DNA of 64,000 nt, from assembly GCF_014858005.1 (NCBI RefSeq), contig NZ_JACYOT010000005.1, forward strand, positions 124,001 to 188,000. The letters run 5' to 3'. The notes beneath the pieces were generated by a model. The model was not told the origin of the DNA. It was given only the letters and a program-made list of their open reading frames with translations, and did no database searches. Shown one piece after another: positions 14,791 to 63,568 of the stretch (the stretch's first letter is position 1; each line of letters starts with the position of its first letter). The stretch is from Propioniciclava soli. GTDB taxonomy: Bacteria; Actinomycetota; Actinomycetes; Propionibacteriales; Propionibacteriaceae. The translations under genes were made by a program, and so were the position numbers.

Positions 14791-14859
14791 TGCCACCCTG
14801 CCGAAGCCGTCGCCACCCTGCCAAAACCGTCGCCACCCTGCCAAGTCCGTCGCCACCCC
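14791..14859 (-). repeat. 3.5 copies of a 20-nt tandem repeat (array 1)
   Basis: Read on the minus strand, the units are GGCAGGGTGGCGACGG plus four variable bases, with an exact period of 20. The third unit differs at a few positions. Units of the same design occur 50 bases further on in the opposite orientation. Confidence 0.85.
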
Positions 14860-14907: not shown

Positions 14908-14978
14908 GGGCAGGGAGGCGACCGCTCGGGTAGGGAGGCAGCCGCTTGGGCAGGGACGCGACCACGCGGGCAGGGAGC
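14908..14978 (+). repeat. 3.5 copies of a 20-nt tandem repeat (array 2, inverted relative to array 1)
   Basis: Units GGGCAGGGAGGCGACCGCTC, GGGTAGGGAGGCAGCCGCTT and GGGCAGGGACGCGACCACGC, then a partial unit. Period and core match array 1 on the other strand, so the two arrays could pair into a long imperfect hairpin around a 48-base centre. Confidence 0.85.
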
Positions 14979-63082: not shown

Positions 63083-63364
63083 TCAGTACGAGACCGACCC
63101 GTACGACACCGAGCTCGAGGGTGCGGCGCCGTAGGAGACCGAACCGTACGACACGGAACCATAGGAGACCGACCCGTAGGAGACCGACCCGTACGACACC
63201 GACCCATAGGACACCGAGCTGGAGGGGGCGGCGCCGTAGGAGACCGAGCCGTACGAGACCGAATCGGGGGCCGAGCCGCCCGGCAGGGCGTAGGACACAC
63301 TGCCCAGGGCCAGGGCTCCGGCGGCGAGGGTGCCGGTGGCGGCGAGCGCGAGACGCTTGATCAT
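63083..63364 (-). CDS. secreted SVSYG-pentapeptide-repeat protein
   Basis: A 93-residue protein with a signal peptide (MIKRLALAATGTLAAGALA, likely cleaved after Ala19 or at Ala26) and a mature part of about 70 residues built from 11 copies of SVSY, mostly as SVSYG, with two AAPSS spacers splitting them 3, 6 and 2. The DNA units differ only by synonymous third positions, so the peptide repeat is under selection. There is no Cys, few charges and no known domain. Low-complexity Ser/Tyr/Gly repeats suggest an exported structural or aggregating protein, but I know of no family. The ATG follows GGGGA by five bases; a terminator hairpin follows the stop. Confidence 0.8.
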   Translation of the reverse strand: MIKRLALAATGTLAAGALALGSVSYALPGGSAPDSVSYGSVSYGAAPSSSVSYGSVSYGSVSYGSVSYGSVSYGSVSYGAAPSSSVSYGSVSY

Positions 63365-63541
63365 TTTTTCCCCAATCACTCAGTGTTCTTTGCCCACACG
63401 ATCTGCGGCGGTCACCGGTGTGGGTGATTCACACCCTAGTCAACAGCGATCCGCGGCGTGAAGTTGAACACGGCGGGGGAGGAAGAAATTCACCCATGCG
63501 CCCCCCCTGGGCCCACCCATGGGGCCATCAGGGGGCGAAAC

Positions 63542-63568
63542 CGCCCCGGCTCGGCACGAGCCGGGGCG
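63542..63568 (-). terminator. hairpin terminator after the aldo/keto reductase gene
   Basis: Perfect 12-bp stem CGCCCCGGCTCG / CGAGCCGGGGCG with loop GCA, 16 bases after the stop codon. Confidence 0.75.

Follow-up and report, generated by a model that had tools for sequence, protein, structure and literature searches.

A lineage-restricted Propioniciclava soli gene encoding a probably exported peptide of tandem SVSYG units

The window analysed here, a 64,000-nucleotide stretch of the Propioniciclava soli genome (contig NZ_JACYOT010000005.1, positions 124,001 to 188,000), carries a minus-strand open reading frame (ORF), here named svsyg, that encodes a protein made largely of SVSYG repeats. 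From the translations we take the gene order to be ftsK, aldo/keto reductase, svsyg, rimO, pgsA, and cinA, followed after cinA by a helix-turn-helix gene, a DUF3046-like ORF, recA, and recX. The features of the locus, in window coordinates and in the direction of the gene, are as follows.

63542-63568, minus strand: perfect 12-bp hairpin after the upstream aldo/keto reductase gene, parting that gene from svsyg
63417-63435, no strand: 19-nt dyad GGTGTG-N7-CACACC upstream of svsyg, beside a -10-like TAGGGT
63371-63375, minus strand: ribosome-binding-site-like GGGGA, 6 nt before the ATG, read from the sequence
63083-63364, minus strand: svsyg, ORF for a 93-aa repeat protein, probably exported (ATG start at 63364, TGA end at 63083)
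63287-63364, minus strand: probable Sec signal peptide of 26 aa, MIKR-LALAATGTLAAGALAL-GSVSYA, with the first SVSY unit inside it (translation and hydropathy)
63233-63262, minus strand: repeat block 1, two SVSYG units
63218-63232, minus strand: spacer 1, AAPSS
63128-63217, minus strand: repeat block 2, six SVSYG units
63113-63127, minus strand: spacer 2, AAPSS, differing from spacer 1 only synonymously
63083-63112, minus strand: repeat block 3, SVSYG, then SVSY and the stop codon
63028-63076, minus strand: terminator-like hairpin 3' of the stop codon (23-nt arms, 87% complementary, 3-nt loop)

The start codon, ribosome site, signal peptide, and stop codon of svsyg all lie in register. Downstream, a 106-nt region containing the 3' hairpin folds at -72.1 kcal/mol (z = -6.3) and has no T-run at the hairpin, and a terminator scan based on T-runs makes no call there; of the ribosome site and terminator described in an earlier, sequence-only reading of this DNA, the GGGGA and the strong hairpin are borne out, but the T-run is absent. 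The unit appears to be monocistronic, because one hairpin follows its stop codon and the 12-bp hairpin closes the upstream gene. A promoter scan found no consensus promoter, and Rfam gave no match above the gathering score. The GGTGTG-N7-CACACC dyad, lying between the presumed promoter and the ORF, is a possible operator; because the genome holds three such dyads (the others at C5:126602 and C45:313363) vs. two for the reversed control, it does not amount to a demonstrated regulon. Other short tandem arrays occur in the window, namely two 20-nt arrays that are roughly mutually inverted (14792-14858, GCCACCCTGCC..., and 14908-14977, GGGCAGGGAGGCGACC...) and a 13-nt array of 3.8 copies (CAGGACTGAGCCC, 1491-1540).

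The translated protein reads MIKRLALAATGTLAAGALALGSVSYALPGGSAPD-(SVSYG)2-AAPSS-(SVSYG)6-AAPSS-SVSYG-SVSY, and Tandem Repeats Finder places the array at 63086-63262 with 15-nt and 45-nt periods. A degenerate two-unit pattern occurs seven times in the window and not once in 100 shuffles. Over its whole length the ORF contains 11 SVSY units and two AAPSS spacers, as the sequence-only reading had reported for 63083-63364; its grouping of the units as 3, 6, and 2 stands for the last two groups, whereas the first group divides into one unit in the signal peptide and two in the mature chain. The mature chain thus holds 10 SVSY units, arranged as blocks of 2, 6, and 2, nine of the units being complete SVSYG, with the final unit ending as SVSY before the stop codon. 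By eye and by hydropathy, residues 1-26 show the n-, h-, and c-regions of a textbook Sec signal peptide, in keeping with the earlier description of the protein as secreted. The first SVSY (residues 22-25, in SVSYA, with an AGT serine codon) falls at the end of this peptide, in the cleavage region, and signal peptidase would likely cut at S-Y-A|L, after SVSYA. This would leave a mature chain of about 67 residues and 6.4 kDa with the composition S25 G11 V10 Y10 A5 P4 L1 D1, which contains no Lys, Arg, Cys, or Met and so has one acidic and no basic residue.

The SVSY within the signal peptide is encoded by AGT GTG TCC TAC, three of whose four codons match forms found in the array. Tandem duplication of this sequence may have given rise to the array, although chance or convergence is also possible because its first serine codon is of the AGY type vs. 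TCN in the array. Alignment of the region upstream of svsyg with the array gave nothing informative.

The repeats themselves bear on whether the peptide is made and maintained. Among the nine complete SVSYG units, pairwise differences number 0, 0, and 88 at codon positions 1, 2, and 3, and none of the 88 changes an amino acid in the svsyg frame, whereas each of the other five frames shows 58-90 pairwise amino-acid differences. This upholds the synonymous-only variation noted from the sequence and supports the argument drawn from it, that the pattern reflects selection acting on the peptide and not recent slippage. About 29% of random changes in the array codons would be synonymous, and the probability that all changes are synonymous is 6e-4 at the minimum of 6 events and 2e-9 at 16 star-tree events, these counts being approximate because the units share ancestry and the true number lies between the two. 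Codon choice in svsyg resembles that of four neighbouring genes except among serine codons, where TCG is favoured and AGC avoided. A plus-strand frame across the array that reads Y-[ED]-T-[DE]-P was considered and rejected, as it contains five stops and D/E changes. Since svsyg occurs in one genome, a between-species test of selection is precluded; within that genome, translation and constraint of the peptide are well supported, and because the repeats differ only at silent positions of the DNA the peptide is probably real and maintained by selection.

Searches of 199 genomes from the family and 393 from the order turned up no homologue of the svsyg protein; the best matches, on inspection, were unrelated low-complexity sequences. 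Protein-search matches in relatives, family, and order proved to be YGQ-rich regions of larger proteins, or antisense and other chance frames. In G187 a long sense-strand ORF, which we read as presumably PhnI, has an acidic C-terminal tail, YDTDPYDPE, and the best-looking match in the family (L064, SYGSVSYGWASY...) comes from the antisense strand of that tail. The pattern SYGSVSYGSVSY gave ten DNA matches in the genomes of 84,980 species, none of which encodes a secreted SVSYG protein and several of which are intergenic actinobacterial DNA motifs; in 395 genomes of the class it recovered the svsyg gene only. A related-locus search returned 201 pattern matches and no confirmed relative, with a tblastn step that may mask low-complexity sequence, and tblastn against plasmids and phages, a weak negative given its filtering of low complexity, gave no match. 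Searched at the DNA level within the genus, the whole unit matched short fragments only, and the signal-peptide part searched alone retrieved generic Ala/Leu signal peptides. The PDB search found no homologue (one chain at E 0.17 only), no profile in Pfam, NCBIfam, or PHROGs matches significantly, and the open literature searched holds no SVSYG repeat protein, so that the earlier statement that no named family fits holds across the profile, PDB, whole-genome, and literature searches. These results support svsyg being an orphan gene, lineage-restricted within the collections searched.

A separate DNA motif was noted in different actinobacteria, a direct repeat ACCTACGG-N4-GTAACCTACGG (or ...GTAAGTTAC) at L074:4870-4905, L079:6537-6572, and L082:2044-2079, with a similar site at L078:418-453. 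By eye, the genes just downstream are presumably those for an acyl-ACP desaturase (L074), a haemolysin-III-like membrane protein (L079), and a long-chain acyl-CoA ligase (L082); the motif looks like a candidate operator of a fatty-acid or membrane-lipid regulator.

At the corresponding site, svsyg is missing from the relatives of the same genus whose contigs extend far enough upstream of rimO. In L035, L037, and L038 rimO comes immediately after the aldo/keto reductase gene, and in L039 and L040 a different small ORF stands between the two genes; in L033, the closest relative by RimO (91%), ftsK directly adjoins rimO. The contigs of L034 and L036 end just upstream of rimO, and these genomes are covered by the whole-genome protein search of their assembled part. 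Within ~110 bases upstream of rimO, L035 carries a short tandem array of GGGGCTCTCGGCGCGCAACACC units, so the repeats lying between the aldo/keto reductase gene and rimO differ from species to species.

Chains with a tyrosine every five residues, Ser and Gly between, and almost no charge tend to self-associate. The reading that we prefer, held tentatively and at a little under even confidence, is that svsyg encodes a real, exported, low-complexity peptide specific to its lineage, and that regularly spaced tyrosines probably let this peptide self-associate at the cell surface. Cleavage of the Sec signal peptide near SVSYA|L would release ~67 residues of SVSYG units and AAPSS linkers. From this composition we infer that the peptide would be retained at or near the cell surface and would self-associate through tyrosines and valines set at regular intervals along a Ser/Gly backbone. 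It could plausibly function as a miniature structural peptide of the resilin, silk, or cuticle type; tyrosine crosslinks, as an optional reinforcement, are speculative. The sequence-only reading had likewise suggested that the protein could self-assemble in the manner of FUS-like or silk-like sequences, or be crosslinked through tyrosine. The SYGAAPSS junction and the tyrosine spacing, which resemble resilin consensus repeats, and the several multicopper-oxidase domains encoded in the genome speak for a structural role. Against it stand the shortness of the mature chain, the single-sequence AlphaFold2 prediction, which gives no fold (pLDDT 40, pTM 0.11), and the absence of a DyP peroxidase from the genome and of a dedicated crosslinking enzyme beside svsyg. 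The presence of multicopper-oxidase domains and the lack of DyP are both weak indicators; taken as structural evidence, the AlphaFold2 output and a Foldseek search that returned nothing favour neither assembly nor its absence.

The same features admit other readings. The exported peptide might instead be soluble and disordered, and act as a binding partner, decoy, or ligand (for example in multivalent binding to surface carbohydrates or cells) rather than as a structural material; its Ser/Gly-rich chain with no predicted fold and its small size vs. the long chains of most structural proteins fit such a role, which we judge rather unlikely in view of the high and regular Tyr/Val content, a property that in low-complexity proteins favours cohesion over solubility. 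It is also improbable, and more so, that the ORF is non-functional, an intergenic repeat array left open by chance: no homologue came out of the searches and relatives lack the gene at this site, but the restriction of variation to synonymous positions in one frame only, together with the in-frame signal peptide, ribosome site, and flanking hairpins, argues against an accident.

Two further possibilities take the repeat period or the identity of the units as their starting point. Fungal dikaritins combine a signal peptide with repeated Tyr-containing cores, and the svsyg layout, in which identical Tyr-containing units, their identity kept by selection, come after a signal peptide, might likewise mark a multi-core precursor from which each SVSYG is excised and modified. 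No modification enzyme adjoins svsyg among its neighbours (ftsK, aldo/keto reductase, rimO, pgsA, and cinA) and no basic cleavage sites separate the units; RimO is a housekeeping enzyme for a ribosomal protein, and rimO is also present in relatives that lack svsyg. The adjacent enzymes and processing sites of a multi-core RiPP are thus missing, making this origin very unlikely. Scarcely any more credit, and if anything slightly less, is due to a pentapeptide-type beta-solenoid. The five-residue period is shared with Pfam Pentapeptide_2 (PF01469), which matches svsyg weakly (13.7 bits, E 0.059) and under its gathering cut-off of 26.4 bits; the single-sequence AlphaFold2 prediction gave no structure, Foldseek returned no match, and the AAPSS breaks between the blocks of 2, 6, and 2 units, a point of difference from Pentapeptide_2, would interrupt a solenoid.

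Orphan genes are common in bacteria, and most are not provable as selected proteins from one genome; in svsyg such a test is built into the gene, whose nine complete units differ from one another at silent positions only. Should the peptide prove to assemble extracellularly, it would count among natural tyrosine-based materials as a very small one, its repeat simple and easy to synthesise, and it would illustrate how a new secreted gene can enlarge by tandem duplication.

Among known kinds of protein, that of svsyg is best rated as a secreted low-complexity repeat protein. FUS-type low-complexity domains share its Ser/Tyr/Gly composition, but are intracellular, irregular, of SYGQ/GYG type, and joined to RNA-binding domains. 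Actinobacterial (S/P/Q)YGQ-rich N-terminal regions (for example in L060, L090, L093, and L154) likewise have Tyr-Gly repeats with a period often of about five; unlike svsyg, they are rich in Q and P and joined to folded or membrane domains in frames of 350-600 aa, without the plan of a signal peptide followed by pure repeat.

Similar in overall plan are the secreted tyrosine-repeat cuticle proteins of animals, comprising nematode epicuticlins and insect GYR/YLP proteins (PF02756, PF02757; PMC9612446). Like svsyg, these have a signal peptide and then a disordered tandem-repeat chain with conserved tyrosines; they differ in being animal proteins with 51-residue repeats and GYR/YGD/YLP motifs, and the Pfam search matched neither motif family to svsyg. 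Resilin consensus repeats are GGRPSDSYGAPGGGN and AQTPSSQYGAP (PMC13052691), and the SYGAAPSS junction of svsyg is similar to SYGAP and PSSQYGAP within resilin. The two share secretion (for svsyg, from a signal peptide recognised by eye and hydropathy), low complexity, regular tyrosines beside Gly, and linkers containing Ser and Ala-Pro. Resilins come from insects, have longer units, and show no detectable homology to svsyg, and their dityrosine crosslinks have been demonstrated, whereas in svsyg such crosslinks are speculative; the likeness to resilin, as to the GYR/YLP proteins, is compositional only. The resemblance to resilin and cuticle proteins would be a convergence in composition, not homology. 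A bolder proposition, which we regard as doubtful, is that a bacterial lineage, with no homologous gene known, built up a secreted structural polymer based on tyrosine by multiplying a five-residue word in tandem, and so came independently to resemble the resilin and cuticle proteins of arthropods in this polymer.
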